The notes beneath the pieces are model-generated. The model searched no databases. It saw nothing but the letters and a program-made list of their open reading frames with translations, and had not been told where the DNA came from. The position numbers were made by a program, and so were the translations under genes. A stretch of DNA of 64,000 nt from Undaria pinnatifida (lineage: Eukaryota; Sar; Phaeophyceae; Laminariales; Alariaceae): NCBI GenBank assembly GCA_012845835.1, contig JABAKD010000021.1, forward strand, positions 8,784,006 to 8,848,005, in the 5' to 3' direction. Positions 1,957 to 55,848 of the stretch are shown here, one piece after another. Each line of letters opens with the position of its first letter. Position 1 is the first letter of the stretch.

Positions 1957-2990
1957 GAGGGGGGGGGGGACGTACTCATTTCTTGCTTGCCTTAGTCCTT
2001 TGACCATTGACCACGCATCTCTTTCGAGACGGAACACCGTTCCTACTCCTAATAGAGAGACCTCCAACATTTGGGCGCTCATTACGCTTCTTCCAAATAT
2101 TACATTGAAACTGTTCGCTTATCCTATCCCCGTCCTGTTTCGCCGTCTGCGGCCACCATCTATCTCCTAGGATGGCGATCGTTTTCTCGCTGCTCTCTAG
2201 TCTGCCAAACTGTTCCATGTCACATAGGTCTAGTTTCCTTATCTCCTCCTCTAACGTATCCCATCCCTCCTTGGGCATTTCATATTCTCCTACTATGTGA
2301 GCCCTACTCTCTATTGTGCAAACACGAGCACGTATTTATAGCCACGTCCTCCTCCTCCCGACTACTGGTATATCTTTCTTGATTCTGATAGGTCCAGGTC
2401 CCCTACACGAAATCACAGTTTCAGTTTTTTTGCGTAATCCATTGGGCCGTGCACATACGTTTTCATTCCAATATCTTCCCTCAACCCCTCGTATATCTCG
2501 AAGTGGTTCTCCTCTTTCACCTTATTTCTTAGCGCTTGCCTTTCCCTTTCTTCTATCATTTATGTTACTTCTGCCTTGGCCCGCCAAACGTCTCTATAGA
2601 CAGGATGTAAAAAAAAAATAAAAAAAAATAGACAGGATGTAGTACCTCTTTTTGGTCTCCCCCTAAATCCTTCCATATTGTCTCGACTACGTTATCCCAT
2701 CTTATTCCAGCTTGCCCTTTTGTTATTTTCTCCCGTACAGCATTATCAACTATGTATGGCTGGCAACCTCTTTTCTGGAATATCACTTACTTTACATTGC
2801 CATTTCAACTTCTTCACGTCTCGGTTTTAAATGGGTGCATTCCTAGTTCTGCTCTACTGATGATGTATAGCTCGTCGTACTTGAGCATCCCAGCATCTTT
2901 TCAGCTGCTTGTCATCTGCACTGTTTCCAGCTGTTTAACGAGCTTCGCGTTCCCTTCCCATACTTCTCCTGCACACTGTTGACTTTGCAA
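1957..2990 (-). mobile_element. LINE 3' fragment, copy 1 (5'-truncated)
   Basis: Read on the minus strand this is the C-terminal end of a non-LTR retrotransposon ORF, the same family as 19,612-20,595. Recognisable pieces are KLVKQLETVQ (about 2,920), RAELG (about 2,840), AGIRWDNVVETIWKDLGG (about 2,690) and CDMEQFGRLESSEKTIA plus RWWPQTAKQDGDRIS (2,130-2,230). Several frames are needed, so it is decayed. The core RT domain lies upstream of what remains. The 3' end reads AAATGAGTAC and is followed by a C-rich tract on the minus strand (poly-G on the plus strand, 1,957-1,969). An inserted A/T-rich duplication interrupts it near 2,605-2,640. Confidence 0.8.
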
Positions 2991-3318
2991 TGGTGCAATC
3001 ACATCAATCAGAATACATCCAATCACATCAATCAGAATACATCTACAATTAATCCTAGTGTCAAGGTACGAGTCTGTTTGGATCGAATCCATCCGGGAGA
3101 GGGGGAGGAGAAGAGCCTGCTTAGTGACCCCTGGAGTGAGATACCTCTATTAATAGGGGGGGGGGGGAGAGAATATGGAGAAAGAAAACGTACGAAGAAA
3201 ATAGATGGGATGGGACGAGCAAAAGAAAAAGTCCAGCATCGTCTTCCCTCGTCGGCTCGCGTCGAATTGTGCCTACCCACGCTGCCAGGCTATTAATAGG
3301 CGTTCTCAGCAGTTGATC

Positions 3319-5860: not shown

Positions 5861-5908
5861 TAGTAGTAGTGGTTCTAGCGTTGGGCTGCGAAAGCAACTG
5901 AGTTAAAT

Positions 5909-6003
5909 CGACACACGACGCGTATGAAAATACGTGGAAGTGTGGTGAGCTAAAGCTTTATTTTTCCCCATCCGCCGGAGGATAAAAAAAAAAAAAAAAA
6001 AAA
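5909..6003 (+). mobile_element. Tiny poly(A)-tailed retroposon, copy 1
   Basis: A 75-nt body starting CGACACACGACGCGTATG and ending CCGCCGGAGGAT is followed by about 20 A. An almost identical 77-nt body with its own A tail is at 56,365-56,456, where a 12-bp target duplication proves insertion. Both copies begin at the same base, so this appears to be the full length. The A tail here abuts a (GTA)n array that hides any target duplication. The body contains ATTTTT flanked on its 3' side by an ATCC...GGAT hairpin. Confidence 0.75.
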
Positions 6004-6939: not shown

Positions 6940-7110
6940 CCGCCACCCCCCCCCCCCCCCCCCCCGCCCCCCCACCGCTTGCCTCTCTGTCTTCCTCGTC
7001 AGTCACACCATGTTTCCAGGCGGTCTTTTCCCACGTTGTTGCTCGCGGCATTGTAGGGACGCGAGGGTCTATGATCTGAGCATCATGGCCATGCACAACA
7101 ACGAGTACCC
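6940..7110 (+). mobile_element. Family G 3'-end fragment with C tail
   Basis: GTAGGGACGCGAGGGTCTATG...GCCATGCACAACAACGAGTA runs into a C-rich tract. This is the 3' end of family G as at 9,795-9,850, 17,718-17,770 and 18,575-18,630. A poly(C) run (6,944-6,966) also precedes it, so the truncated copy is bracketed by C tracts. Confidence 0.6.
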
Positions 7111-7344
7111 CCCGCTCCCGCCCCACCACCTCCCGCGTTTTTTCACCTGTCTTAGTCACAGCCTTACCATCTTACCGTGCTTCCAGTCTTAACAGCTCCC
7201 GTTTCCACCTTACGCCCTCCCCCCCTCCCCCCTCTCCCCTTTCTCCCTTCTCTGCCCCCCTCCCCGCCCATATACCCTCCCCGCCCTTACGGTCCCCCCC
7301 CCCCCCCCCCGCATCTCCCCCCCCCGCATCTCTCCCTATAACAG
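7111..7344 (+). other. C/T-rich tract leading to a possible 3' splice site
   Basis: More than 150 bases of mostly pyrimidine end in CCCTATAACAG at 7,344, a plausible polypyrimidine tract and AG acceptor for the open frame that follows. It could equally be the C-rich tail of the family-G fragment just upstream. Confidence 0.35.
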
Positions 7345-8800: not shown

Positions 8801-9325
8801 AACCGCCTATAACACGAATAGGGCGGGCTAGCCTCTCTATATAGGGCGCCCAAAACTCCTTCACACTTTTTTTTTTTCTTTGGTGCCCATCTCCTCTGTT
8901 GTCTTCGCTTTTGTTCCCTAGTCCTTCTCCCTTCCTAGACGTAGCTCAGATACAATAGGGTCACTAGGGTCACTACTAAGCAGGGTCTTCGTCTCCCCCC
9001 TTCCCCCTACGGTACATTTTATGCGTGCCTTCAGTTTTTATCACGAGATAAATTCAGCCTTTTCTTCTGTCGTCAACTCGCATCGACTCGTGCCTCCTTA
9101 CGACACAGCCCCCGCACCAATCTGCATGAAGTCACCATCAACCAAACCTCTTTCGGCTCGCACAATTGAGACCCGCCTCGTCTCCCAGCAAACGTCAGTC
9201 ACCATGCGCCCCCCCCCCCCCCCCCCCCCCGGACCTTCCCTTTTCCATACTTGACATACTTAACATATACAAGGTATATATAATAGTTGGTCTCGGTTGG
9301 CACCGACGCTGTAGAACATTATTTA
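8801..9325. other. No gene seen
   Basis: A T-rich stretch, mixed DNA and a pure C run at 9,209-9,230. The word TTGGTTGGCA(A/C)CGACGCTGTA occurs twice (about 9,295 and 9,345), a 55-bp local duplication at the family G border. Confidence 0.4.
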
Positions 9326-9329
9326 TATG

Positions 9330-9880
9330 TATATTGGGGTTGGCGTTGGTTGGCAACGACGCTGTAAAACATGCCAATCACTGCGTAAGCTAGACAAGCC
9401 GGGTACCGTTTTTTGTGATTTGTTTTTGGCTGTCAGCTATGATGGTTATCGAGTTAGATTAAATTGTGCGGGGTGGAGAACCTTAATTCCGCTCAAGGGG
9501 AATGATCGCATCACGCAGTGTGAATGTGGTAAGCCACGCACGAGGCAGTTACATAGTAATACCCATTACTGTCTCTGGAGTGGCCACACCAGAAAAAAAT
9601 GTAAAACTCATTGGCGCTGCCATCCATAAGCAAGGAAGTAGGCACATACATGGTGCCGAAATCTGTGTTACGAGCGCTTCTTGGAAGGATGCAGTTCACC
9701 CTTTACGCGACTCGCCGAACACCTCACGGCGCTTCGCGCTTGGTGCAAGCAATGTCTGCCTGGTTGAAGAAAACCCGACGCGCTCCGTCCCGGCAAAGTA
9801 GGGATGCGAGGGTCTATGGTCATGCAACTACGGCCATGCACAAACGGAGTACCCCCCCCCCCCCCCCCCCCCCCCCAATC
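9330..9880 (+). mobile_element. Family G copy, LINE-related, with poly(C) end
   Basis: This is the longest copy, sharing order with 55,140-55,585. One frame around 9,515-9,625 reads CECGKPRTRQ...HYC, a Cys-His knuckle like those at the C terminus of LINE ORF2 proteins. The 3' end, GCTCCGTC...AGGGATGCGAGGGTCTATGGTC...GGAGTA, aligns with the 3' end of the LINE copies at 20,520-20,595 and 38,810-38,880, then gives way to about 25 C. Either a second LINE of the same lineage or a SINE that borrowed the LINE 3' end would fit. No long intact ORF remains. Confidence 0.65.
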
Positions 9881-13260: not shown

Positions 13261-13540
13261 TTTGGTATACCTAGGCCATGAGTTGCGCAAGCAGTTCTTC
13301 GAAAAAATGAACAAGCATTTTTTTTTTTCGGGTGGCGGCTATATATTCATGTTTCAGCTTTTTTCACGTGAGGGGTTGTTCCAGAAAACGAAACTTGGTG
13401 CACCGTTTATGAATACCGCCGTAGCACGGGACCCGATGTGTCCTTACTCAAAACCTTTTTGCCCGATCGAACCAGCGGGTGATTTTTTTTTCAGGACAGG
13501 GGGGGGGTGTTATGATGATGTGAATGTGAATGTTCAAACA

Positions 13541-13833
13541 CGCCTGCTACGATAGAGCTGCGCCACATTTTTTTTTCCGAGTTTTCCTCAACTTGGGAGC
13601 TCAAGACAGACCTCTCTCTCCCAAAACCTGATTGATGTGGAGAAAAATAAAATAAAGATGCTGACCGGATGAAAAAATCTCATGGCCTAGTGCTGTAGGT
13701 ACACGGCGAGAATCATGAAAAGAAAATGGAATGGCCTATTATTTGTTTTTTCTCCGACCCATTTGGGGGTCCCCCACCATCCAAAAAACATTTTCGCCAA
13801 AAAAAGGTATACCTCTATCGTAGCACGCGTCTT
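13541..13833 (+). mobile_element. MITE family B copy
   Basis: The left inverted repeat is CACGCCTGCTACGATAGAGC and the right is TACCTCTATCGTAGCACGCG. Interior landmarks, shared with 44,551-44,824 and others: CTTGGGAGCTCAAGAC, CTGATT, GGATGAAAAAATCTCATGGC, GTACACGGCGAGAATCATG and CATTTTCGCCAAAAAAAGGT. About 290 bp with no coding capacity, a typical non-autonomous DNA transposon. Confidence 0.85.
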
Positions 13834-16249: not shown

Positions 16250-17112
16250 ACAACCAAGCCCAGCCTAGCTCAACCCAACCCCAACCCCTCGCCACTCCAC
16301 CCTACATTAAAACCAGCCTGGTTCAACCCAACTCAACCCAACTCGACCCGACCCGACCCACCCCAATTCTATACTCAATCCAACCCAACCCAACCCAACC
16401 CCAACCCAACCCCAACCCAGCCCAACCCAACCCAACCCAACCCAACCCGACCCAACCCAACCCAACCCAACCCAACCCAACCCAACCCAACCCAACCCAA
16501 CCCAACCCAACTCAACCCAACCCAACCCAACCCAACCCAACCCAACCCAACCAAACCCAGCCCAACCCAGCCCAAGCCAACTCAACCCAACCCGGCCCGA
16601 CCCGACCCAACCCAACCCTATACCCAACCCAACCCAACCCAACCCAACCCAATCCAACCCAACCCAACCCAACCCAACCCAACCCAACCCAACCCAACCC
16701 AACCCAACCCAACCCAACCCAACCCAACCCAACCCAACCCAACCCAACCGAACCTAACCCAACCCAACCCAACCCAACCCCAACCCAACCCAACCCAATC
16801 CAACCCAACCCAACCCAACCCAACCCAACCCAACCCAACCCAACCCAACCCAACCCAACCCAACCCAACCCAACCCAACCCAATCCAACCCAACCCAACC
16901 CAATCCAACCCAGCCCAACCCAACCCAAGCCAACTCAACCCAACCCAACCCGACCCGACCCGACCCAACCCAACCCTATACCCAACCCAACCCAACCCAA
17001 CCCAACCCAACCCAACTCAACCCAACCCAGCCCAACCCAACCCAACCCAACCCAACCCAACCCAACCCAAGCCGACCCAACCCAACCGAACTCAACCCAA
17101 CCAAACCGAGCC
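16250..17112. repeat. CCCAA pentanucleotide array, ~860 bp
   Basis: Uninterrupted runs of CCCAA are punctuated by variants CCCGA, CCCAG, CTCAA and CCAAT. The phrase CGACCCAACCCTATACCCAA recurs at about 16,605 and 16,963, and a looser version at about 16,345, giving a higher-order period of roughly 260-360 bases. On the other strand this is (TTGGG)n. All six frames stay open for long distances because the unit is five bases, so no protein is inferred. Confidence 0.95.
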
Positions 17113-17582
17113 TACCGAGCCTATCACATTCCACCCCTGCCGTTCGCCTCCCTCTATGCCTCCCTCCGCTCATACGCAAAACCGCCCGAAACATTCCATC
17201 TTCGAGACGGGACGGGGGAGCGGCAGGGAGGGGAGACGTCTGTTCAACCACTATGGCAGTCTCCCCTTCCGGACTTTCATCTTCCCCCTCACCGACTGCT
17301 CAGTCTCCGGTATTTCAGGCGTCCGAAGATCTATGATTTTTAGACTGCGGCAATCCATGACATGTGCACACCCAGCCCTACTTTTGCCCCGCCTTCCCTG
17401 AGGTTCAACTTACACGATCTCCCTCCGTCCCCCACTCCCCCTCTCCCCGCCTTTGCCCCCCCCCCCCCCTTCCCCCTCTGCTTCTCACCTTCCTCCCATG
17501 TATTCAACCACGACAGTATATTCCCCCCCCGCCCCCCTTCTTATATACGACCTTGACCCCCCCCCCCCCCGCCCCTGAAGTC

Positions 17583-17780
17583 CGTGTTACGAGCCGTTGT
17601 TGTAAGGATGCAGTTCACTCTTCGTCCGACTAGCCGAACACCCCACGGCGCTTCGCGCTTGGTGCACGCAATGTCTTCTTGGTTGGTGAACACCCGACGT
17701 GTTCCGTCCCGGCCTAGTAGGGATGCAAGGGTCTATGGTCATAAGACTACGGCCATGCACAAACTGAGGACCCCCCCCCC
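17583..17780 (+). mobile_element. Family G 3' fragment
   Basis: Shares GTGTTACGAGC, AAGGATGCAGTTCAC, CGCTTCGCGCTTGGTGCA and GTAGGGATGCAAGGGTCTAT with 9,660-9,850, and ends CATGCACAAACTGAGGA followed by about 14 C. A C run (17,557-17,572) also precedes it directly. Confidence 0.75.
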
Positions 17781-17794
17781 CCCCGCCCCCGATT

Positions 17795-18035
17795 GATTAC
17801 CGCCCCTTTCGACTCTTGGTCTATAGGTAGAGGTGTACGACAATATTTATGCCGCTGCTTGATCTTGAGGAGCTTTGTCTCTCTCACCCCAATATTTCGA
17901 GAGAAATAAAGCATCCTATGGCCTAGGAACACGAAAGAGCAATCGTCCGACTACGTTGGGCTCAGGATCCTCCGTTATTCAACAGAAACCGTTTCGGCCA
18001 AAACAGCGCTCTACCTCCATCGGAACATGCGTCTT
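17795..18035 (+). mobile_element. Diverged MITE family B copy
   Basis: GAGGTGTACGACAA, CTTGAGGAGCTTTGTCTCTC, CATCCTATGGCCTAGG and the right end TACCTCCATCGGAACATGCG follow family B order. Divergence is high, so this copy is old relative to 44,551-44,824. Confidence 0.5.
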
Positions 18036-18477
18036 TTGTTTGCGTTTCAACCACGTAACCCCCCCCCCCCCTCCCCTGATTTGTATGCCTCCCTCCTGTA
18101 ACATTCAACAATATGGCACCCCGTCCTTCCAGCTTACGCCTCCTTCCAGAATCCACAATATTTTGCACTTGCTGACATTGAAAATAGTTCGAGTCGTTAC
18201 GGCCGGGGAGATCCCGTCATTAGCGACCCCTGGCTTCCCCCCGCTTACACTCAGCCATATAAAATCCCTCCTTCCCCTCCCCCTTTTATGCCTCGGTCTG
18301 CTCGTACAACCCCCCCCGACATATATTCGAGTGTATTCAGCAATAAGACAATGCCCCCCTCCCCTGCCCCCCTGTCCCCACGCCCTTCATGCCTCCCTCT
18401 GCTTTTCGTACAACTCCGATGAAAGCTTCGTGTGTATTCAATCAACCATATGGCAGCCTTCCCCCCCCCCCTCCCCC

Positions 18478-18640
18478 TTCATGCGACTCGCCGAACCCCC
18501 TCTCACGGTGCTTCGCGCTCGGTGCACGACACGGTGTCTGCCTGGTCTGTGAAAACCCGATGTGCTCTGTCCCGGCATGGTAGGGATGCGAGGGTCAATG
18601 GTCTTTAATACTACGGCCATGCATAAAAGGAGCCCCCCCC
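18478..18640 (+). mobile_element. Family G 3' fragment between poly(C) tracts
   Basis: Contains GACTCGCCGAAC, GCTTCGCGCTCGGTGCA and GTAGGGATGCGAGGGTCAAT, and ends CATGCATAAAAGGAG with a C tract. A C-rich tract (18,460-18,477) lies immediately 5'. It is 5'-truncated compared with 9,330-9,880. Confidence 0.75.
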
Positions 18641-19611
18641 CGCCGCCCCCCTGCGTTTTGCGCCTATGCCGGCTTGCATACGTAAGCCCCCCCGGCAAAA
18701 CCTCGAGGCGGAGCGGAGCTCCTATGTATAAATGCAACCATATAACATATTCACCCCCCCCCCCTCTATTGATGCCTCTGATACGTAAGAACCCTAGGCA
18801 AAAAAACTTCGAGACGGAGCGAAGCGGCAGGGGGGATAATCGAATTATAGGCCGTCCCTTCCCGCCCCCCCCCCCCCGCCCCTCCCTTCCCCCCCCTCTG
18901 GTTGTATCGAACCGTAACACCCCCCCCCCCCCCCCCCGGGCCTTTTGTGCCTCCCTCCGCTTGTAGGGAACCCTTGACGAGAAAAACGCCGTCGCTCATC
19001 GCTTCCCATTGCGTCCCGCAGCTGACGTAGATAAAAAAACCCTGACAAAAGTTCCTCCGCTTATCCAGGAAACCCCTGACATTTTGTTTTGCTTATCGCC
19101 TCCATCTGCTTGTATCCAACCATATGAAGACTTCCCCCTTCTCTCCCCCCCTCCCTTCTTTTCACGCCTCCCTCCTCATAATGACATAATCTTCCCACAA
19201 ACAAGCGTATACAATGAACAATATGACCCCGCCCCCCCCCCCGACGCTACGCCTTCCCTCGCTCATAAGCAACCCGACCCAAAAAAACACCTTCGAGCCG
19301 GAACGGAGTGGCAGGGGAGATTAAATCATAGGCGGCACCTCCCCGCCTTGGCCTGACTCCGTCTGTATCTAAGCATATAGCAATCAAGCTCACCGCCCTC
19401 GAAATAAAACTTCTCCCCGCCCCCATGCTATTATGCATCCTTCCGCTGATGTGTAAACCCCACACGTCAATCCGGCAAATCTTCGAGTCCGGGCGGAGCG
19501 GCAGGGGAGATCGAATCATAGGCTACCAACCCGTCACTTCCTCCCCTATTTTTGGCTTCCCTTCGTTTATTCATTACCTATGACCCCCCCTCCCCCTCTT
19601 GTGTCTCCAGA

Positions 19612-20595
19612 CTTCGTAAAAAAACTGGAAACAGTGCAGGTGACAGCAGCTAAAAAGATACTAGGATAACCAACTACGACGGCTAATACAGTATTAAGAG
19701 CAGAACTAGGAATGTACCCAATTAAAACAAACAAGAGACGTGAAGAAGTTGAAACGGCAATATAAAGTAAATAATGTGCCAGAAAAGAGGTTGCCAGCCA
19801 TCATAGCTGATAGGGCTGTACACGGGAGAAAATAACAGGGCGAGCTGGAATAAGATGGGATAACGTAGCCGAGAAAACATCGTAGCCGAGAAAACATCGT
19901 AGCCGAGAAAACAGGGAAGGATTAATGGGGAGACCAAGAAGAGATACTGTCTACAGAGAAGTTTGGCGGGTACAAGACAGAAGTAAAATAAATAATAGAA
20001 GTAAGGGAAAGGCAAGCGCTAAAAAATGAGGTGAAAGAGGAGAAGCACTTAGAGATATACGGGGGGTTGAGGGAAGATATTGGAATGAAAACGTATCTGC
20101 ACGGCCCAATGGACTATGCGAAGAAGCTGAAACTGCGATTTCGTGTAGGGATCCTGGATCTACCAAAAACAAGAAAAATATATACCAGCAGTCGGAAGGA
20201 GGAGGACGTGGCTACAAATATGTGCTCGTGTGGCACAACAATAGAGAGTTGGACTCACAGAGTATGAGAATGTGAAATAAACAAGGAGGGACAGGATGCG
20301 TTAGAGGAGGAGATGAGGAAACTAGACGTATGTGACATGGAACAGTTTAGCAGACTAGAGAGCAGCGAGAAAATGATCGCAATCGTAGGAGGTAGATGGT
20401 GGCCGCAGACGGCGAAACAGGACGGGGACAGGATAAGCAAACAGTTTCTATGTAGTATAGACTATGGGAGAAGCGTAATGAGCGCCCAAATGTTGGAGGT
20501 GTCTATATTAGGAGTAGGAACGGTGCTTCGTCTCGAAAGGGATGCGTTGTCAATGGTCAAATGACTAAGGCAAGCAACAAATGAGTACCTCCTCC
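19612..20595 (+). mobile_element. LINE 3' fragment, copy 2
   Basis: This is the C-terminal end of a non-LTR retrotransposon ORF. Ordered pieces: KLETVQVTAAKKILG (19,620), TVLRAELGMYPIKTN (19,690), ITGRAGIRWDNVAEK-like residues (19,830), LRFRVGILDLPKTRKIY (20,130), the Cys-His knuckle NMCSCGTTIESWTHRV (20,220) and CDMEQFSRLESSEKMIA (20,330), then RWWPQTAKQDGDRIS. Frameshifts and a stop inside the knuckle show it is dead, and the block AGCCGAGAAAACATCGT is locally triplicated near 19,866-19,910. The RT core is missing by 5' truncation. The element ends CAACAAATGAGTACC followed by a C-rich tract. Confidence 0.85.
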
Positions 20596-23574
20596 CCCCC
20601 CCCCTGTGCTTGTTACGCCTCCTCCCGCTTATATGAAACCCCCAGATGTAACCCCGACAGAGTGAGCGTTGAGACGAGCCGGAGCGGTATGGCGGTATGG
20701 GAGATCGAATCACAGGCTACTCCGCCCCCCCTCCCCAATTCACATCTGACCATGCGATATGACCTCCTTCCCCTCCTCAGCTTTTTTTGCCTCGCTTTGC
20801 TTACATTAAGGCTGCTCCAAACCCCGACACAGCTTTGGAGATGGATCGGAGGCGAAGTACACGTGCCGCCTGGTAGTCGGCGAGGCCAGTCTTTCGAGCA
20901 TCCTCAGACAGTGCCGCATTGATCCGCGTAACGAACTCCCCGCTATCGTAATGTCTAGACCCCCCCCCCCCCCCCCCCAGCGTATAATCAACCATTACGA
21001 GTATAATCGCCCCCCTCCTCCCCCTTATGCCTCCCTGCGCTCATTCGAAACCCCATAGTTTGTGGTGCAAATCGGGTTTTGAAAGGCCTACTCGAGGTAG
21101 CATTCGTCGATTTTTTTTTTTCGTCCACTTGTCCTCTGAAGCTTCGAGCAGGAGTGGAGCGGCATGGGATATCGAATCACAGGCGCCCCCCCTTCCCCTC
21201 AGTACCACCCCCCCCCCCCCCCCCCCTCGGCTTTGGGCCCCCTTTCTTCCACATCCAGCGGTATGACAACCCCCCCCCCCCTCCCCCCCCCGCGCTTTTA
21301 TGTCCCCTTCCGCTAACATGTAAACCCCTGTACGTATGTATCCCCGACAAAGCTTCGAGACGGGGCGGAGCGGCAGGGGGGATCGGATCATAGGCGAGGT
21401 CCACGTGCCCCTAGAGGCCGCGCGGCTAGTCCCTCGTGCCTCCTCCGACAGCGCCTCCATAAGCGGGGGTAGCGCGCCCGCCTACCGGCTGAGGGGGGAC
21501 TGGGAGCTGCAGGGCATGATAGGGCCCCTCGGCGAGGCGGCCAGGGTGGGTGCAGACGTCATCGTGAAGGGTCCTCCGTCTCCCACTTCTGCTGCAGGAA
21601 GGCTTAGGAGGAGGAGAGAGTCCGTGGGGTGGTACGCGAGATGAGTCAGATCCCCCTGTTCATGGACGAGATATCTCCCTCTCCGTGTTGGAGCTGCTTC
21701 GCAATGGAAGGCTGGCGTGGGGAGGGGAGGGGGGGGGGGGGTGTTGTTAAGCGGGGTCCTCTGTCTCGTACTTCTTCTGCTGCTGCGGGTAGACTCGGGA
21801 GGAGGTAGGTAGTCCATCGGATGGTGCGCAAGATGAGATAGATCGCCCTGTTTATAGATGAGATCTCTGCCCCCCTCCCCCTGTCCATTTGATTGGAGTT
21901 GCTACGTGATAGAAGGCTGGGGTAGGGAGGGGTGTTGTCATGCGGGGTTTTCCGTCTCCTACTACTTCGGCTGCAGGTAGTCTTAGAAGGGGGAGGAAGA
22001 GGGAGTCTATCGTATGGTACGCTCGATGAGGCTTATCCTCTGTTTATGGATGAGATCCCCCTTCCCTGTCCATCGATTGGAGTTGCTTCGCAATGGAAGG
22101 CTGGAGTAGGGAGGGGCGACGGAGGAAGGTGTGAGCACACCATGCGGGGTCCTCCGTCTTCTGCTTATCCTGCTGCATGCTGGCTGAGGAGAAGCTGGAG
22201 GGAGTCTTTTGAGCTCGACGAGAACCACCCACCTCACGCCACTTAGCGCTAGGTGCAAGCAAATGTTCGCCTGGTCAGCGAGAACCCGACGTACCCCGTC
22301 CCCCGACTTTATAGGTCTAAAAACTGAGGCTATGCATGATGATGGAGCCTCCTCCCCCCCGCCCCGCGCACATCGATGAAAGTCCCCCCCCCCCCCTCCC
22401 GTCCATTGAGAGGAATTGCCTCGCTATGGGGAGGCTGGAGGGGGGGAAGGGGGTGCTTCAACGGGTATGGGAGTACGCCCGCCTGCCCTTTGAGGGGGGA
22501 CTGGGAGCTACAGGGGCATGGTAGGACCCCTCGGGAAAACGGCTAGCGTGGGTGCGGCTGTTGTCGCGGAGAGGTCCTCCGTCTCCTGCTTGTGCCGCGG
22601 GTACACATAGGAGATTGAGAGAGTCCTTCAGTTGGTAGACCACCCAAGATGAATCGATGGGAGTTGCCTGGCAATGGGAAGACTGGAGGGACGAGGAAGG
22701 AGAGAGAGTTCGTCAGATGGTAGACCACCCAAGATAAATCGATGGGAGTTGCCTGGCAATGGGAAGGCTGGAGGGATGAGGGAGGAGGGAGGTGGCGTAA
22801 AGAGGGAGGTTTCGCAGTCAATGAGGAGGTCCAGGAGCTAACTTGCTACGAAGTCGTTGTGTGTCGGGCGTGTGGGCCAAAGAGTTTTTGATGGCCTTGC
22901 TCTACCTGGGTTTGGCGAGGGAGGGCGGTCAGGCTCGATCAGACGAAAATGGGTAAATCGTCTGCCTAAACATACCGTTTGTTGTGTTGGAGGTCGGTGG
23001 TAAGAACCGCTCGGCGAGACTGCTAGGGTGGGTGCGGGTGCGATCGTGAACGCTCCTTGGTATCCTACTTCTGCTCCGTGCAGGCGGACGAGGGGGTTGA
23101 GGAGGCGGAGGAGGGGCTCCGTCGGATGGCATGCTCGATGACTGTAGTTGAAAATCGAGTATATATAGAAGAAGGGAGTACTCGTAGTAGGTTGTGCTGT
23201 GCATCTTTTCTAGTCTACTTTTCCCTCACATGACTCGATCGGAGCTTGCCTAGCATTGGGAAGGGGGGGAGGAGCGGGGGAGAGGGGAGAAGAGGGTTTC
23301 CCAAGAGCATGCATAGCCGTAGTCTTGAGGGGGGGTGCGTGCGAGGAGAGTAGAGGGTAAGGTTCTCCGTCTCGTGCTTCTGCAGCGGGCAGGCTCAGAA
23401 AAGAGGTGTGAGCTGCTACACAAGATGAGCCCCCCCCCCCCCCCCCCCCGTGCCTTCCCCCGTACATCAGATGAGCCCCCCCCCCCCCCTCCCCCCTTCC
23501 CCCGTACATTAATGACACCCCTACATGACGCGTCGTAGCGCTCTTGTTTTTTTTTTTTTTTTGTTATCAGAGCC

Positions 23575-23825: not shown

Positions 23826-24374
23826 TGTTTCACACCCTCTAGGCCCCCCAAAACCCCTCCGTATACCAAGTCCAAGTAATATTAGGGTTCCCAGTTTTGA
23901 AGGCGTCAAGTCGATATCATCGGAACGTGCCGGTCTCGTTTTTTTGCAGTATTTTGTTGGTAGTATATCTAGACCACATTGGTTTGCCCGTCGGGCGCGG
24001 TATATTCATTTATTTGTTTCTCAACATGAGTGTTAGGGTGCGAGGTGTATGTATATGTTGAGCTCCTCATGTGAGGCAGTCTCCGAAAAACGTCGGCGTA
24101 TCCCTCACCCTAACCCTAACCTTATTATCGTGGGTTGCATGCTTTCTGTAGCGTGTTGGAGTTGCATCGAAGTGGGAAGGCTGTTGGAAGTGGGCTTCGA
24201 GGGGGGGGGGGGGGAGGGTACGAGGGTGGAAGGATATAGGGCATAAGGGCGGCCGAATCGCCCACTTCTGTTGCACAGATCTGTCTAGGCTTCTGAGAAG
24301 TTGGCAGTCCGTCGGATGGTATGCTCGATGAGTCTATCGGAGTTGTCTCGCAATGGGGAGGCTTGCCTTGGCCG

Positions 24375-24525
24375 GGGGGCGGGGGGTAATCATTATATAA
24401 TGCACGATTGTGGTCGTAAGACCATACGCCATCGCATTCCTGCAATACAGCGACGGCGCACGTTGCGTGTTCACCGACTAGGAAGATATTGCTTGCACCA
24501 AGCGCGAAGCGCCGTTTTGGGGGAA
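24375..24525 (-). mobile_element. Family G 3' fragment
   Basis: The minus strand carries GGCGCTTCGCGCTTGGTGCA, a CTTCCTAGTCGGTGAACACG segment and a 3' end at TGCATTATATAATGATTA followed by CCCCCCGCC. Orientation is opposite to the 9-18 kb copies, matching the G-rich polarity of this zone. Confidence 0.65.
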
Positions 24526-24804: not shown

Positions 24805-25085
24805 GGACGCGTGCTACGATAGAGGCATCGGTTTTCGTCTGAAATGATTTCTGAATAACGGGGCTCCTTAGCCTAAGCGTTAACCTTGACCCAGAATCGT
24901 CGGAAATACGCCATTTTTTTTTTTCAGGATTCTCGTCGTGTACCTAGGCAAATTGGATTTTCATTCGGTCCACCAGCAGAATTATTGTTCTCCAAATCAG
25001 TTTTTGGGATATAGGTGTTAAGCTCCCATATTGAGGAGTGGAATTAGAAAATATGTGGTGCACCTCTATCATTGCATGCGTCGAC
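24805..25085 (-). mobile_element. MITE family B copy
   Basis: Terminal inverted repeats GACGCGTGCTACGATAGAGG (left) and GGTGCACCTCTATCATTGCA (right) bound about 280 bp. The interior has TCGTCTGAAATGATTTCTGA, CCAGAATCGTCGGAAATACG, TCTCGTCGTGTACCTAGG and AAATCAGTTTTTGGGA, the reverse of the family-B order at 13,541. Confidence 0.85.
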
Positions 25086-25489: not shown

Positions 25490-26286
25490 CTATTGTTAAA
25501 TTAATAGGTGGGGGACACAGAGTGCCCCCTGCAGGTCTGCCAATTGGGTAGGTCCTCGGAGTACTCACTTTCGTTCCTTCGTAGAGATGTAGCTTTATTC
25601 GTTTCCACCAGAGCCCGGGATAGCTTCTGAGATCGGAGGCGCGTGCCTCCGATCTAATTCCTAACTTCCCCGAATATAAACCGCCAACCTTATCATACGA
25701 AACCCATCCAAATGATCTCAAATTCGGATACCTACAGGCCTTTCGAGGCCGTATCTTAACACTAGCCCACCCTGATGAGTCGCATATGCAGAAATATGGG
25801 AGATTCGGGGAAACTCCGGTTCTACGAACTAGACCATGAGTCGAAGATGCGGCTCCTCAAACCCCACTCCCACACCTCTAACCGTCTGGCTATGGAGCCA
25901 GGAACACGCGAAGAAAAGCAGTAGAAAGAAAAGCAGACCCTACAGCAAGGCAATAGTCACCCATCAAAAACCTGCCGCATGCCGCCACTTTTCTGTCCTG
26001 CCGTCGACGCCACTTGTTAAATTAATAGGTGGGGGACACAGAGTGCCCCCTGCAGGTCTGCCAATTGGGTAGGTCCTCGGAGTACTCACTTTCGTTCCTT
26101 CGTAGAGATGTAGCTTTATTCGTTTCCACCAGAGCCCGGGATAGCTTCTGAGATCGGAGGCGCGTGCCTCCGATCTAATTCCTAACTTCCCCGAATATAA
26201 ACCGCCAACCTTATCATACGAAACCCATCCAAATGATCTCAAATTCGGATACCTACAGGCCTTTCGAGGCCGTATCTTAACACTAT
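25490..26286 (-). mobile_element. TRIM-type miniature LTR element with identical 268-bp LTRs
   Basis: Two direct repeats, 25,494-25,761 and 26,015-26,282, are identical by eye over 268 bases. Each starts TGTTAA and ends TTAACA, and they are flanked by the 4-bp target duplication CTAT (25,490-25,493 and 26,283-26,286). The 253-bp interior has no coding capacity. Orientation is judged minus: on that strand the interior opens, two bases after the LTR, with TGGCGTCGACGGCAGGAC, a candidate primer-binding site, and closes with a G-rich AGGGTGGG stretch. Each LTR contains a perfect 11-bp hairpin, GATCGGAGGC/GCCTCCGATC. It looks whole for a TRIM, and identical LTRs imply a very recent insertion mobilised in trans. 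Confidence 0.9.
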
Positions 26287-27090: not shown

Positions 27091-27224
27091 CGCCGGCGCC
27101 CAAAACACAAACTCGTCGCGCTAAACATTTTTTTGTCCGGTGAGGTTGTACAGAAGGCACTCGTTGGAGTGCCTCAACACCGACGGTGAAAACGCGGGTA
27201 TCTCCCCCAACGCGGGCTACAATA

Positions 27225-27535
27225 TAGAGGGAGGTAGCACTTTTCGTGTGAAATGTTTTCTGAATGACGTGTGAAATGTTTTCTCCATAACCCCAAATCG
27301 TCGGAAATTTGCCATTTTTCTTGTTTTTTGCATGATTCTCGCCGTGTAGTCTATCCCCAGGCCTTCTGGTTTCTTTTGTCATCCGGACGGTACGATAGCA
27401 GTAGTTTTGGTTTTTCGACAAATCAGTTCCGGGGAGAGGTATCTTTGAGCTCCCAACTTTGAGGAATGCCTCCTCAGAAAAAAAGTGGCGCACCTCCACC
27501 GTAGCTACCGTAGCTATCGTAGCACGCGTCCCCCC
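27225..27535 (-). mobile_element. MITE family B copy
   Basis: Left end GGCTACAATATAGAGGGAGG, right end CTATCGTAGCACGCGTCC with a local triplication of the CCGTAGCTA word. Interior: GTGAAATGTTTTCTGAATGA (partly duplicated), AAATCGTCGGAAATTTGCC and CAAATCAGTTCCGGGGAGAG. Confidence 0.75.
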
Positions 27536-30964: not shown

Positions 30965-31775
30965 TATATTATAAAAATATAGATACACCCCAGCTGTGAT
31001 ATCGAAGATTTTGTCGAACCTCATCTGATCTTTGCAAGCTGTGTGTGATACTCCGATCGCGCGTATTACGGGTTGTGTGTCCTCATTAAGGATATAGGTC
31101 GGCGACTCCCCTTGCAACTACGGTGTAGCTATCAGGGTCAACAGGGTGATGTTAGTCAGTCTGTGCGCGGAAACTATGAAACTCGTTTCTGAGGGGGACA
31201 AAATCTGACAGCTGTCGAAGGAAATGCATCCGTTTATCAAGTGTGTCCTGAAAAACCGGTGAGGGGAGGGCGGAGTTTTTAAGGGCGTCGGGGCCTGGGT
31301 TTGAACAAGAGGGAGCGGGGGGGGAGACGGGCGGGGCAACTCAAAATGTGCGTGGAAACTATAAATCCTTTAAGGGGACAGATCTGACGGTTTTGGAAGG
31401 AATGCACCAGTTTATCATGTATATATATCCTGTACGTCGTACAACCAGTGAGGGGAGGGTGGAGTGTTCGAGGAGGTGAGGGGGGGGGGGGAGGTGGGGG
31501 CAAAAGGGTTTTCAACAGCATTAGGTCGCATAGATGTAGGGGCTTGCTATACACGTGGTGCTAGGCCTAGGCGATGGTGCGGGTGGTGGGGAAGGAGGGG
31601 GCGTTGGGGGGGGGGGGGAGGCGGATTGGAGCAACGGCATGGATGGCTAGGAAAAAAATGAGGTGTGGTCTCAACTGCGTGGAAGTGTTTATTCTTTGAC
31701 AGATTTCGATTTTAGGTGAGGTGGGGCGTTTGAGCAAGAGGGAGCGGGGAAAAAGAGAGGGGGAAGTATATAGTC
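30965..31775 (+). repeat. Family A repeat, forward copy
   Basis: Runs from ATACACCCCAGCTGTGATAT through GATCGCGCGTATTACGGGTT, GGATATAGGTCGGCGACTCC, GGTGCTAGGCCTAGGCGATG and TGACAGATTTCGATTTTAGG to GAGGTGGGGCG. It is the inverse of the nested copy at 28,928, and its homopolymers are now G runs. Confidence 0.85.
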
Positions 31776-37954: not shown

Positions 37955-39140
37955 ATCATTTCGGTGTCTCTGTAGTACGGGAATGCGTACAGCATAACCT
38001 AGACAGTGAAGGAAGGAAGCAGTATCTATGCGTTTTTATTGTTGAAAGACGTGTGAGCATGCCACAGAGGTGGATATTGCAATTAGGGTCATGTCCGCCA
38101 GTAGCCCTCCCTCGCACAGGCCACATAAATTGATAATAAAAACAGCCCATTCGAATTAAATGCGACCACTAGACTAAGTATATACGCTCGGTGTCCTGTT
38201 TGTACTGTACTGAATATGGACGAAGTAATTATATTTATTGAGTATCGCTCCCGCTGTGGGTCATACCGTGCAGACACTACGCAGAGATAGCGTTACGATG
38301 ACCCAAGGCAAATGATTGTTTCTCGTACGCCCCTGCCTGACTTTATACCGCCCGCGAGCGGTGGTGATCGCACCCTTAAGCTCCTAGTTCACGACAGAGA
38401 CAACACATATCTTTGCGAGCCGAGCTGCTGCAGGACAGCCCGAACGCCCGAACCCCGATGCCGTCTTTTTCCGCAAAGAGTCATACTCGGCTTTCCGCCA
38501 TACTCGTTTCTCCGTACTTTTTATGATGGTTGTTTCGCCCAGGGCGTAAAGCTCTGGATATTATGCACAGTTACCGTAATATCCACTGTGTTGTCCCCCC
38601 TTTTGCGTTGCCCCCCCCCGCCCCCCGAAATGACTTGACTGTTTTAAAATGAGAGAAGCGAGAAAACGATCGCTATCCTAGGAGATAGATGGTGGCCGCA
38701 GACGGCGAAGCAGGACAGGGATAGGATAAGCAAACAGTTTCTCTTCAGTGTATGGGAGAAGCGTAATGAGCGTCCAAACGTTGGAGCTGTCTCTATTAGG
38801 AATAGGAATGGTGCTCCGTCTCCAAAGGGATGCGTGGTCAATGGTCGAATGACTTCGAATGCAAGAAACAAATGAGTATCCCCCCCTCAACCCCCCCCCC
38901 CCCCCCTTCCGCGAAAATGGCCTAAAAAAGTGGTAAAAACGATGTGCTACCTTACCAGTGGAGCAAGTTTTTTCTTTTTTTGACGATGTCCCCCTTACCT
39001 ATTAAATTCCCGGGGACAAATTTACTCTCAAAATGTATCGATGTCACTCGCCCCAGGGGGCCAACATACACACAAATATGCCGGATTCCGTTCCGCCCCA
39101 TCCGCGATGTCTGCTGTCAACAACATCTACGAGCAGGCGA
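37955..39140 (+). repeat. Segmental duplication SD1, copy 1
   Basis: Three blocks match 46,355-47,615 in order: GTACGGGAATGCGTACAGCA to CATGCCACAGAGGTGG; CCATTCGAATTAAATGC through GTGTCCTGTTTGTACTGTAC to CCACTGTGTTGTC; and AGTGGTAAAAACG to CATCTACGAGCAGGCG. This copy lacks the MITE J found in copy 2 and has gained a LINE fragment (38,651-38,905). No gene was recognised inside. Confidence 0.8.
38651..38905 (+). mobile_element. LINE 3' fragment, copy 3
   Basis: Covers the last 225 bases of the LINE: GATCGCTATCCTAGGAGATA, GGTGGCCGCAGACGGCGAAG, GGAGCTGTCTCTATTAGGAA and a 3' end CAAATGAGTAT followed by C tracts. It interrupts SD1 copy 1. The corresponding place in copy 2 (about 47,345-47,365) is an empty C-rich site followed by GAAATGG. 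Confidence 0.85.
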
Positions 39141-43689: not shown

Positions 43690-44302
43690 GATGAAGATTT
43701 TCGTGGCGATAAGGTCATTCAAGATGATTGTACTTTTCGAATTTTCCCCCAAAATTTTTCAATTTTTTTGATAAACATTTTCGTAACGTAAGACAAATCG
43801 CGGGCGTGCTAACCGATTTTTTTGAATTTTCGACGGGTTTTCAAAATTCTGATGATGATGATTTTTGTAGCGATAACGTCGTTTACGGTCTTGCTAATCG
43901 GTTTTTTTCTCCAGATTTTCAAGTGCCTGGTGGAGATTTTCGTAGCGATAACACAACCTACGGGCGTGCTAATCGAATTGTTTCTCCAGATTTTCAGTTT
44001 TCTAGTGGAGATTTTCGAAGCTATAAGACAACCTAAAAAATATTTTTCGGACTACAGCATGTAATATAAGGGCGTCATAATCGCTCTCCACAAAATTCGC
44101 AAAATTGTCACAGATTTTTTGGACAGCAGTACATAAATTCAGGGGGTATTAATCGCTCTCCAAAATCCACAAAATTACAACTACCACGGTACAGATACAT
44201 ACTTCGAGGTATAAATTTTGGGCGTCATTATCGCTCCCCAAAAGTCACAAAATCGTGACAGATTTTCCGTCAGCAGTACATATATATGTATGTTAATGTA
44301 AT
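43690..44302. repeat. ~75 bp satellite-like array
   Basis: Units share GATTTTCGTAGCGATAA, CGGGCGTGCTAATCG and TTTCTCCAGATTTTCA. In the second half a related unit uses GGGCGTCATAATCGCTC and CACAAAATTGTCACAGA. About eight units are present. The array resumes at 44,830-44,900 (GGGCACGCCCGTCGTAATCG, CAAATTGTGACAGATTTTT), beyond two MITEs. Confidence 0.75.
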
Positions 44303-44550
44303 AACGCGTGCTGCGATGGAGGGTGCACAGCTTTTTTTCTAATACTACCCCTCAATTTGGGAGCTTCTTAAGACCTCTCCCAAAAACTGATTGGAGAAAT
44401 AAAAACAAAACTACTATGATACCGGATGGATGAGAAATCTCCCATGGCCTCAGGTACACAACGAGAACACCACGCCAAAAAAAAATTGCAGCCTACTCTT
44501 TCCGTGATGTTATTATGATGTTATGATGAGGTTATGATGATGTTCATGTA
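44303..44550 (+). mobile_element. MITE family B copy, right end replaced
   Basis: Starts AACGCGTGCTGCGATGGAGG and follows family B order through TTGGGAGCTTCTTAAGACCT, ACTGATTGGAGAAAT and CCCATGGCCTCAGGTACAC. It then passes into a GTTATGATGATG run and abuts the next copy. Confidence 0.8.
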
Positions 44551-44824
44551 ACGACGCGTGCTACGATAATAGAAGTGCACCACTTTTTGTCTGAGGTTTC
44601 CTCCATTTGGGAGCTTCTTAAGACCTCTCCCAAAAACTGATTTGGAGAAACAAAATACAACTGCTGCCCGGATGAAAAATCTCCCATGGCTTTTGGTACA
44701 CGACGAGAATCATGCAAAGAAACAATCAATGGGGCGAATTTTCCGACGATTTTGGGTCAAGAAGCCCCGTCACGCAGAAACCATTTTCGCCAAAAAACGG
44801 TATACCTCTATCGTAGCACGCGTC
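44551..44824 (+). mobile_element. MITE family B reference copy
   Basis: Best-preserved copy: left inverted repeat GACGCGTGCTACGATAATAG, right TACCTCTATCGTAGCACGCG plus TC. About 275 bp, inserted with its neighbour into the ~75 bp satellite, which continues directly after it. No coding capacity. Confidence 0.9.
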
Positions 44825-46354: not shown

Positions 46355-47615
46355 CACCATTTCGGTGTTTCGGTGGTACGGGAATGCGTACAGCATAATA
46401 ACCCAGACAGTGAGGGAAGGTGGTGCGTTTTTATTGTTCAAAGGCGTTTGGGCATGCCACAGAGGTGGGTATTAAGAGTCATCCCGCGCTAGAGGTGCAG
46501 CAGAAGTTTCTGAGCTCCTATTAATTATAACGCATGAGGAGCTAGCTCAATATATCACCCGAAACAACATGACTTCGAAGGCGTTCGTTCGCACAAACCG
46601 ACCGACATTTCTATGCGCTAGTCCTCAAAAGGAAAAAGAAAACTCCTAAAATTATTATATACTAATCGATAGCTCCACACTCGAGGAGCTCAACCGGTAA
46701 GAGCTAAGAGCTAAGAGCTAACAACAGCCAAGAAACGTTTTGGCCCGAAAAAACGACCAGAAACGTTTTGGTCCGAAAAGTGCAACATCTATATCGTGGG
46801 GTGACTCCATAGACATGTCAGCCGGTAGCTCTCCCTCCCAAGCCACGGAAAATGGCAACCAACTACGCCCCATTCGAATTAAATGCAACCACTAGACAAA
46901 ATATATACGCTCGGTGTCCTGTTTGTACTGTACTGGATATGGACGTAGTAATGATATTGATTGAGTACCGCCCCCGCTGTGGGTCTTACGGTGCAGACAC
47001 GACGCAGAGATAGCGTTACGACGACCCAAGGCAAATTATTGTTTCTCGTACGCCCCTGCCTGACTTTTCACCGCCCGCGAGGGGTGGTGAATGCTCCCTC
47101 AAGCTCCCAGTATGCGAGGGAGACCAAACGTATCCATGCGAGACGAGCTGTTGCAGGGCAGCCCGAACGCCCGAACCCCGAACTCGTTTTTTTCCGCAAT
47201 CATAATGGTCGGCTTTCGGCCTTACTCGTTTCTCCGTGGTTTTATTTTATGACCGTTTCGCTCAGGCCGTAGAGCTCTGGTTATTATGCGCAGTTACCGT
47301 AATATCCACTGTGTTGTCTCCGCTTATGCGTTGCCTCCCCACCCCCCCGCCCCCCCCCCGAAATGGTCGAAAAAGTGGTAAAAACGCTGTGTTACCTTAT
47401 TGGAGTAAGTCTTTTTCTTTGACGAAGCCCCCTATCTTCTAAGTCCCCGGGGGCATTTTTTTTTCTAAATATTTATCGCTCTGCCCCCGGGGGGATTGCA
47501 CAAAACATCCATACCACTCACCCCAAGGGACAAGCATACACAAATCTGCGGGATTCCATTCCGCCCCACGGGCGATGTCTGCCTTCAACAACTCATCGAC
47601 GAGCAGGCGGACCCT
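46355..47615 (+). repeat. Segmental duplication SD1, copy 2
   Basis: Counterpart of 37,955-39,140, interrupted by MITE J (46,495-46,808). Where copy 1 has a LINE, this copy has an uninterrupted CCCCCCCGAAATGG. Divergence is visible but modest. Confidence 0.8.
46495..46808 (+). mobile_element. MITE family J, best copy
   Basis: Starts CTAGAGGTGCAGCAGAAGTT and ends GTGCAACATCTATATCGTGG, an imperfect inverted repeat. The subterminal hairpins GAGCTCCT...AGGAGCT occur at both ends. SD1 copy 1 shows the uninserted locus (about 38,085-38,105). About 310 bp without coding capacity. Confidence 0.75.
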
Positions 47616-47819
47616 TTCGTTTTGGTCTCAGAGGGATCATCTTCCTTCCCATCATATCATCCTCTCCCTAACCTCCGAGGAAGGGCCCAAGTGTTATCCG
47701 TTCTTTGCTTCTTGTATGCTTGCTCGTAAATAGATGTTGATGAGGCCAGACTTCACCGGTTATCGCTCGCGAGGTACTCGGCGACGGGGAAGTGTGCTAT
47801 ATAATCGTCTGTTGTGGGG

Positions 47820-48060
47820 GGAGGGCGGGCGGGCGGGCGGGTGGGCGAACGGGCGGGTGAATGTATCCTCATTTGATGCTTGCCTCAGTCATTTGACCGT
47901 TGGCCACGCATCCCTATCGAGACGAAGCAAAGTTCTTCCTCCTAATAGCGACACCTCCAACGTTTGGGCGTTCAGCACATCTCTTCTATATATTGTAAGA
48001 CGTTTTGGTTATCTTACCTCCTTCCTCTTTGGCCGTTCTTGGCCACCATTGTGGGGTGTC
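47820..48060 (-). mobile_element. LINE 3' fragment, copy 4
   Basis: On the minus strand: GGTGGCCAAGAACGGCC, GGAGGTGTCGCTATTAGGAG, GATGCGTGGCCAACGGTCAA, then AAATGAGGATACATT and a CCCGCCCGCC tract (G-rich on plus, 47,818-47,862). It corresponds to the last 190-200 bases of the 19.6 kb copy. Confidence 0.8.
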
Positions 48061-51500: not shown

Positions 51501-53264
51501 GTTTTTGTGACCGTCCCTGTGCGCTTCGTTCTGTTTCTTGACTCGCGCGTCAGAAATGTTCGCGGAAACCCGGTTACGAGTTCACGAGACTTATTGTTTG
51601 CGGCGTGCTGATGTTGCATTCTTTTGCGGAAATATTCAGCTTACTGTTGCGCAGTGGTCGACCGCGGATCATGTCGAGGTTCGATTTCGCGGGTCGCAGG
51701 GTGACCAATCGCGGAAAGGGGCGGTTGTCACGCATGTGCGAAAGGGTCCGTCGATGCGCGTGGGGGAAGGTGGCGGCGCCGTCGATCTGATGATCGAATT
51801 GATGTCTTGTTACTTGTTTCTTCCCTCTTCGGCCCCCTTGGTTGCGTGTGTCGTTGGTAATGGCAGATGGTCCATGTGGACACAACATCAAGCGACGGTA
51901 GCTTTGCGGAAAGTGGTTGCGTTGGCGGGTGTGCGTGCGGAGGAGTACGCCTTGCACTCCCTGAGGATTGGAGGCGCAACGCACTTGTCGGCAGGGGGTG
52001 CAACACCGGCGGTGTTGCAGCGTGAGGGCCGATGGGCGCTGACTAGTTGGGCAAACGCGGAATTACAAAGAAGTGTGTTATCCCGTGTGCACTCTACGAC
52101 TCGAGGGTAGGGGGGGGCGGGGGGGGGTGGGACTACATTCGTAATACGGGTCAACTACCAGTTTGTGCTGGAGGCTGGCGTCGAGAGTTCGATGTCGCCA
52201 GTTGGGTTGGGAGTTGACTCGTGTATACGGATGTTAGCGCGGGGTTGCCGGCGGGGCAGCCCCGGGGTATTCACATCTCCAACCCCCCTCTCCGGGCGGG
52301 GGGTTGCGCATTAATATAATACAACTTCGAAAGCAAATTGCAAAGCAGAATATTATCGAAGTATGAGAAAATATGGGTTTTGTACGTACGTAAGAAGTTT
52401 GACCAATCAGATCAATGCGGTAATTCATAGTCGTATGAGCGATAGCATTGGGCACACCTGGCCCAGCTGTGTAGGCGACGACCTGCACGCGGAGCGCGTA
52501 GGGGAGCAGAGTCAGAGCTTACAGGTCCAAGGTGTGATACAGACTAGTTTAAGTTCCCACCCACCCGCCCGTGATTTTGAGGGAGTCAGTGGAGGGGGAG
52601 TTAATCGGTCGCAGTAACGTTGCGCGTGTTTGTTACTGTTTTGGCAAACGTACCCGTTTTCGCTGAAGATGCGACGGGGTTTCGTAGATTGCGCAGGTTT
52701 GCGGTGGGTGCTAGCTGCATCAGTGTTATAGCGTGGTGCAAGGGGTGTTCGTTGTTGTGTTTTTTTCAGCATGTGTAATATCTGAGTATCCCTCCGTGCG
52801 GTGGGGTTACGTATGACTGTTTTACGCAGATATTATGTCGATAGTTAACAGCGAACGTTGTTATCGGCTCGGATTTAGCGAGCAATCTGAAAGTGTGGGA
52901 GAGGAGAATTATCCGTATATTAGCAAGTAAGTGCATTTGTTTAATGTGCATGGTGTGTGCAGGCGTGCATATTTTATAGCATATTTATTACACGCGTGTG
53001 TACGTTTTTTTTTTTTTTATATGCTGCACGTTATAGGCGGTTGCCTCGTATGTCTTCTTCGAGTTGCCAACGATTGTTCGTCGTTGGTTGTTGGCTGGCG
53101 TCGAGAGTTCGATGTCGCCAGTTGGGTTGGGAGTTGACTCGTGTATACGGATGTTAGCGTGGGGTTGCCGGCGGGGCAGCCCCGGGGTATTCCCATCTCC
53201 AACCCCCCTCTCCGGGCGGGGGGTTGCGCATTAATATAATACAACTTCGAAAGCAAAGTGCAAA
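48555..53264 (+). mobile_element. DIRS-order retrotransposon (Ngaro/PAT-like split direct repeats), fossil
   Basis: The split direct repeats are A1 48,555-48,769, B1 52,173-52,344, A2 52,342-52,556 and B2 53,093-53,264, in the A1-body-B1-A2-B2 order typical of Ngaro/PAT elements. A copies are 215 bp and nearly identical; B copies are 172 bp with about three differences. In the body: an Ala-rich gag-like region (48.8-49.65 kb); a reverse transcriptase with a YVDD box (about 50.2-50.7 kb); an RNase H-like region (about 50.9-51.45 kb); and a tyrosine recombinase (51.54-52.11 kb) with HSLRIGGATHLSAGG and QREGRW. A ~147-bp segment is duplicated inside the body. The coding region is broken, perhaps four to six breaks, although the terminal repeats look young. 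Confidence 0.85.
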
Positions 53265-55139: not shown

Positions 55140-55585
55140 TTGCGGTAACCGAAATGATGGTGGTCGACCTACAGTAGATATATCATATTGTGCGGAGTGG
55201 AAAACCCACACCTCGCGCAAGGAGATGATATGCGTATGGTAGGACACCCACAAGGCAGTCACATTTTTTTCCCATTGCTGTCTCTGGAAGTGGCCACACC
55301 TGACAAAAACTAACTCATTAGACACTGTCATCCGTGTGAAAGAAAGAACGCACAAGGTGCGGAAGTCCGCGTCACAAGTGGTTCTTTGCAGGATGCAGCT
55401 CATCCTTCGCGCGAGTCGCCAAACACTTTATTATTCGTAGTCGTTCAGCTCGTGGTGTGCGCGATGTCTGCTTGTTTGTTGAACGCCCGACGTGCTTCTT
55501 CCCGGCATATGCTAGGGATGCGAGGACCCGTCTTGAGTCATACCCGGCTATCTATGCATGACATGAGCCCCCCCCCCCCCCCCCC
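55140..55585 (+). mobile_element. Family G copy with poly(C) end
   Basis: Shares with 9,330-9,880 the landmarks GATGGTGGTCGACC/GATGGTTATCGAG, TTGTGCGGAGTGGAAAACC, CTGTCTCTGGAAGTGGCCAC, TTTGCAGGATGCAGCTCA and CTAGGGATGCGAGGACC, ending GCATGACATGAG then about 20 C. It is diverged, with no intact frame. Confidence 0.7.
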
Positions 55586-55587
55586 CG

Positions 55588-55848
55588 CCCCGACGCGTGC
55601 TTCGATAGAGGTAGCAATTTTCGTCTGAAATGTTTTCGGAATGACGGCGTTCCTCGACCCAAAATCGTCGGGAATAGGCTATTTCTTTCCCATGATTCTC
55701 ATCGTGTACCTAGGCAACGAGCTTTTTTATCCGGGGTCAGCGTTTTTATTATTCTGAAAAAAATCAGGTTTTGGGAGAGAGAGGTCTTAAGCTCCCCCAT
55801 TGAAGACCCTCACAAAAAATGTGGCGCACCTCTATCGTAGCACGCCCC
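55588..55848 (-). mobile_element. MITE family B copy
   Basis: GACGCGTGCTTCGATAGAGG at the left and GCACCTCTATCGTAGCACGC at the right. The interior has TCGTCTGAAATGTTTTCGGA, AAAATCGTCGGGAATAGGC, CATCGTGTACCTAGGCAACG and AGAGGTCTTAAGCTCCC. It follows directly after the poly(C) of family G. Confidence 0.85.

Follow-up and report, generated by a model that had tools for sequence, protein, structure and literature searches.

Poly(C)-tailed LINE and H elements behind C tracts in the genome of Undaria pinnatifida

The stretch of 64,000 nucleotides analysed here (hereafter the window; Undaria pinnatifida, Phaeophyceae, assembly GCA_012845835.1, contig JABAKD010000021.1, positions 8,784,006 to 8,848,005, i.e. 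C28:8,784,006-8,848,005) contains copies of two retroposon families, a long interspersed nuclear element (LINE) and a shorter element of about 570 bp designated H, together with an array of a degenerate repeat unit in which some of these copies are inserted. Self-comparison of the window sequence, by which its copies were gathered, yielded four copies of the LINE and six of H, located on both strands, and a seventh, short H came from a separate comparison (Table 1). The sense strands of these copies end in C, except for one LINE that ends in GCCC repeats instead. The core observation, that LINE and H copies carry C-rich tails, often lie behind C tracts and follow one another head to tail, is real and genome-wide.

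Table 1. LINE and H copies, C tracts and host repeats in the window (positions counted from its first base)
Feature	Positions	Strand	Remarks
LINE and poly(C) tail on sense strand	1959..3093	-	LINE match 1,970-3,093; G11 at 1,959-1,969 on + strand
Short 3' fragment of H	7043..7118	+	short C tail
Near full-length H	9276..9876	+	match 9,276-9,849; C25 tail 9,852-9,876
Array of degenerate repeat unit with C tracts	17145..21400	+	host of LINE and H insertions
C14-G-CCCC tract 5' of H 17577	17557..17575	+	pattern as in 3' tract (target duplication)
H, 5'-truncated	17577..17770	+	
C14-G-CCCC tract at 3' end of H 17577	17771..17789	+	
H, 5'-truncated	18479..18632	+	start about 18479; flanking C-rich tracts: C11 at 18,461, C9 at 18,633
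C tract 5' of LINE 19610	19584..19597	+	from the sequence
LINE, 5'-truncated	19610..20588	+	last coding part and 3' end
Poly(C) tail (C11) of LINE 19610	20594..20604	+	
H	24374..24515	-	sense-strand tail CCCCCCGCCCCCC
Second repeat family copy	31400..31600	-	internal C tract
LINE and tail	38651..38906	+	match 38,651-38,882; at C tract 38,611-38,626 of another repeat
Empty paralogous site for the 38,651 insertion	47334..47359	+	unbroken C-rich tract
LINE	47819..48049	-	match 47,868-48,049; sense-strand tail of GCCC repeats
Divergent H	55237..55586	+	match 55,237-55,567; C19 tail; MITE-like copy next at 55,592

A reverse transcriptase domain, combined with variable 5' truncation and a fixed 3' end, identifies the longer element as a LINE: a stop-free piece from locus L017 matches RVT_1 (4.2e-11), and two other pieces match it weakly. 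It also holds motifs that, judged by eye, we take to be APE-like. The last 50 or so bases ahead of the tail are common to LINE and H, and both terminate in ...GAGTAC(C)n. A derivation of H from tRNA or another known RNA finds no support, as ARAGORN detected no tRNA head in six loci and all Rfam matches in three loci stayed below gathering scores. The idea that the common 3' end forms a stem-loop was likewise rejected, because none of the four predicted pairs shows a change on both sides and there is no covariation. In viral contigs no relatives came to light with a single protein scan and a single exact pattern.

The genome searched comprises 511,146,479 bases in 68 contigs. The LINE query produced 4,668 first-look candidates, of which 40 were scored and 20 fetched with their flanks; the H query produced 2,384 candidates, with 40 scored and 30 fetched, including the window copy itself. 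Elements were finally compiled in a table of 127 entries from 62 sources (the window and 61 loci; 322,299 bases), for which the H boundaries were revised, the first H 5' ends having overlapped chain partners. A tail or tract was counted where at least 10 of 14 bases are C, and the background for this table, taken at random positions outside the elements, is 4.6% for C and 4.8% for G.

Most copies end in poly(C), as an earlier note on this DNA had expected. Among the complete ends of the element table a C-rich tail follows 46 of 54 in the LINE (A-rich in three, G-rich in none) and 38 of 44 in H (T-rich in one, G-rich in none), while of the ends short of the terminus none of three in the LINE and three of 15 in H have one. 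The same rule gives a C tail to 32 of 40 LINE and 24 of 29 H copies, and an AGTAC-like end with a C-rich tail was recognized by eye in 18 of the 20 fetched LINE copies, the exceptions being L011 and L016. Across the genome the exact 19-base LINE end has 791 forward and 808 reverse matches, the 100 listed places of which run along contigs C1 and C2. From this end 502 forward matches pass into C6 within 0-3 bases; forward matches alone were used for this pattern, and among the places shown they occur once per site, the reverse ones several times.

The 5' ends show a similar preference. LINE copies have a common 3' end and are truncated at many points, and in the element table C tracts stand before 18 of the 33 truncated LINE copies; for H the figures are 33 of 50 truncated and 9 of 17 full-length copies. 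A G tract precedes none of them. The excess of C tracts 5' of truncated copies that the earlier note had predicted is clear and large (51 of 83 pooled truncated starts with C, none with G, against the background given above), is confined to the correct strand, and extends to full-length H, in which a run of at least six C was counted by eye within 60 bases 5' of 13 of the 17 copies. A C tract lies directly 5' of 12 of 20 LINE starts where 0.35 are expected, with no G, A or T tract, and of 29 of 40 refined LINE starts against a background of 7.9%. Genome-wide, C6 occurs no more than 20 bases 5' of the internal LINE 18-mer CGTCTCGAAAGGGATGCG, at one zone of truncation, in 157 reverse matches, which come once per site among the places shown, and in 623 forward matches, a total inflated by repeats of one site; the G6 strand control gives two forward and one reverse match. 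Four copies (L037, L039, L065 and L070) start at nearly one point, at or just before CGTCTCG and about 60 bases from the LINE 3' end, as if reverse transcriptase paused there.

Three insertions have empty paralogous sites that carry the C tract. The repeat broken by the LINE at 38,651 has a paralogue at 47,260-47,640, which continues through the corresponding point with a C-rich tract. The C tract of a second repeat family hosts a LINE in L022 and, separately, an H in L054, and insert-free copies of this family (L024, L044, L068 and window 31,400-31,600) retain the tract at the insertion point. Target-site duplication is plain in the window H at 17,577, flanked on both sides by the identical interrupted tract C14-G-CCCC, and in L026 and L032. 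Most of the duplication consists of the C tract itself, which is there indistinguishable from the tail; the 5' and 3' flanks of the same copy match each other only modestly better than permuted ones, the observed score being reached in 153 of 20,000 permutations (30 copies with tract).

Neighbouring copies form head-to-tail chains in one orientation, a claim of the earlier note that is upheld for LINE and H: neighbours no more than 120 bp apart lie on the same strand in 31 cases and on opposite strands in none, although in one of the 31 (L033) the two parts belong to a single copy that an insert has split, so that 30 remain. In transcription order these pairs are LINE-H (15), LINE-LINE (6, including the split copy), H-H (5) and H-LINE (5). 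With growing distance the proportion of same to opposite strand changes from 9:0 at 121-600 bp to 12:6 at 601-3,000 bp and 2:5 beyond. Genome-wide, a LINE end is followed by a LINE start within 5-34 bases in 14 places, in 11 of which a run of at least six C lies between.

Taken together, the tails, the 5' tracts, the truncation, the one-way chains, the shared 3' end, the reverse transcriptase domain and the tracts in empty paralogues, all of them seen in the sequence, make it probable that the LINE and the non-autonomous H retropose through target-primed reverse transcription in which a poly(C) stretch of their RNA is used at C tracts. The nick, the pairing with the tail, the movement of H by the LINE and the nature of the C stretch are the steps that we infer. 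An enzyme would nick the G-rich strand at a pre-existing C tract, and the G-rich 3' end thus freed would pair with the C stretch that follows the shared GAGUAC in the RNA; this stretch may be either the true 3' end of the RNA or an internal site at which the primer anneals. Reverse transcription would mostly end early, which leads to 5' truncation, and the upstream end would be joined on the other strand, directly behind its C tract, giving a product of the form X-(C)n-element-(C)m-Y whose orientation is set by the strand of the C tract. H would be mobilised by the LINE. Both the new tail and the kept tract would be fresh targets, and LINE and H could therefore build chains that run the same way.

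Several observations weigh against such a mechanism. The empty sites are paralogues, roughly 68-83% alike in the matched flanks, not orthologues, and duplication beyond the tract is modest, with 117 of 5,000 permutations reaching the match of a copy's own flanks (33 copies with tract). By the same rule as above a 5' C tract is missing from 15 of the 33 truncated LINE copies and, in H, from 17 of the 50 truncated and 8 of the 17 full-length ones, and L011 and L034 are without both 5' tract and tail. Crude H starts have a C tract in 10 of 29 cases (background 5.4%), a low count because these starts ran into chain partners. As a check with less selection, six copies were picked one after another along C1, only for the exact 19-base 3' end. 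Three have clear tails, two have short or weak ones, and one runs directly into an H end; the 5' end was within reach in three, of which one adjoins a C tract that follows an H end, another has a tract about 30 bases off and the third has none. The same strand in the 14 LINE-LINE joints was imposed by the search pattern. Finally, the broken LINE pieces tried from the region expected to hold an endonuclease have no Pfam match, nor has the C-terminal piece.

The chains can also be explained in other ways. Template jumping is known for the R2 reverse transcriptase, and a chain might form in one event if the enzyme moved to the C tail of a second RNA. The joints, which are head to tail and mostly have C between them, down to 10-14 nearly pure C bases in L039 and L067, would suit this, but single copies without an upstream element also begin at a C tract, the tract is present in the three empty paralogues, and H 17,577 has an interrupted-tract duplication of its own, all of which makes template jumping an unlikely account. 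Alternatively, older chains may have been re-copied whole from read-through transcripts, so that their order is inherited and not rebuilt. The prevalence of LINE-then-H, the most frequent pair (15 of 31), is in line with this, yet the partners are truncated at many positions, which is unexpected from few master chains, and we hold re-copying to be quite improbable. That the C tails arise by slippage of reverse transcriptase with no target choice, the 5' tracts being C-rich surroundings or bases added at joining, is very improbable: the window is indeed rich in C runs (52 C and 16 G runs of at least 10 bases), but random positions outside the elements have C and G tracts about equally often, 51 of 83 truncated starts have a C tract and none a G tract, the internal LINE 18-mer has C6 in front of it at least 157 times against three for G6, and most full-length H copies lie close behind C runs as well. 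As for an artefact of assembly or polymerase slippage, the exact lengths of long assembled C runs are unsafe, but the tracts are interrupted, vary from copy to copy and are found on the sense strand whichever way the element points, on many contigs, which leaves this next to no credence.

The + strand of the array at 17,145-21,400 has 23 C runs of at least 7 bases and zero such G runs, compared with a mean of 6.4 and a maximum of 15 C runs in a first-order Markov control (300 trials). The array unit is one-way (motif A has 17 plus and 0 minus matches in 17,000-23,500), its motif B is restricted, within the window, to the array, and at 1e-4 the unit was not found in 32 other loci; for these reasons it looks like a separate, apparently local tandem repeat, and its interpretation as a dispersed retroposon was rejected on the last of these results. 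The earlier note had described LINE, H and a family G in the array as uniformly plus-oriented, 5'-truncated and bracketed by C. This holds for H and LINE, whose three named copies are present; for G it was not confirmed, the array repeat so called not being identifiable. The further suggestion that insertions explain the window's many C runs is weak, since a matched LINE or H end lies within 40 bases of seven of the 68 C or G runs of at least 10 bases (a rule under which the H tail at 55,568, at least, goes uncounted). Other C runs belong to the array or to the second repeat family. Directly upstream of the array lies a CAACC repeat array of 155 copies (16324-17107).

The window harbours further repeats. 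A family with inverted ends GACGCGTGCTACGATAGAGGT occurs at 13508-13831, 24806-25083, 27205-27496, 44290-44824, 55592-55845 and 56142-56271; it was considered as a poly(C)-tailed retroposon and rejected, because it has inverted terminal repeats and by eye is more like a miniature inverted-repeat transposable element (MITE). One H has the copy at 55,592 inside its C tail. At 5906-5998 and 56362-56456 there is a short repeat that terminates in 15-20 A, so that A-ended copies coexist with C-ended ones, and the H in L047 has a sequence like this repeat in its flank. An open reading frame at 51511-52110 resembles, by eye, what we take to be the tyrosine recombinase of a DIRS- or Crypton-type element, and a direct repeat of 272 bp, 100% identical, occupies 25493-25764 and 26014-26285.

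Among known systems, the best reading of these sequences is that of a C analogue of the nested insertion of Zepp. Zepp ends in poly(A), whereas tail and tract are poly(C) here. According to the sections on them in two accounts (PMC8226300, PMC3446292), Zepp and Zepp-like LINEs of the L1 clade in green algae insert into existing copies, and their tandem arrays contain mostly 3' ends as a result of frequent 5' truncation; the same-way arrays of truncated copies formed by nested insertion are a feature that both systems would share. In Coccomyxa the same sections describe clusters, one per chromosome, in contrast to the short chains on many contigs found here, where C tracts of unrelated repeats are also targets and a second family, H, takes part. 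The terminal bases shared by LINE and H recall the stringent-type pairs of LINEs and short interspersed nuclear elements (SINEs) outlined in part of PMC3747384, which also mentions plant SINEs ending in poly(T), but H differs from such pairs, as outlined there, in lacking a tRNA head, in its sub-gathering Rfam matches and in the absence of a covarying stem-loop from the shared end. Microsatellite-specific LINEs, among them Togen in (TG)n and some HERO families, likewise use a simple repeat as target; in the relevant part of PMC4640811 they belong to clades with a restriction-like endonuclease, while the target here is a homopolymer, and the same one as in the element's own tail. The 3' ends of LINEs are given in the pertinent section of a review (PMC2881922) as poly(A), short repeats or neither. 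Our searches of open-licence papers listed no poly(C)-tailed LINE, which does not establish its absence from print. Mammalian L1 and Alu have TTTT/AA targets and A tails, and as in the present elements the tail is complementary to the target and merges with the duplication; unlike L1 and Alu, the elements described here have C in place of A, and most of them start at a long tract.

We tentatively suggest, as a possibility rather than an expectation, a self-propagating 'poly(C) economy' in which one and the same homopolymer, C, serves a set of retroposons as the RNA end that is used and as the favoured landing site. If this were true, each insertion would add targets and mixed chains of LINE and H would grow one way, and C tracts in unrelated repeats would be drawn in, shaping the location of retroposons genome-wide. 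A LINE and a partner with poly(C) as both tail and target would provide a natural test of how the pairing of tail and target chooses insertion sites, and likewise of how retroposon chains form and homopolymer tracts spread. A reverse transcriptase primed on poly(C) would offer a useful contrast to those of L1 and R2.

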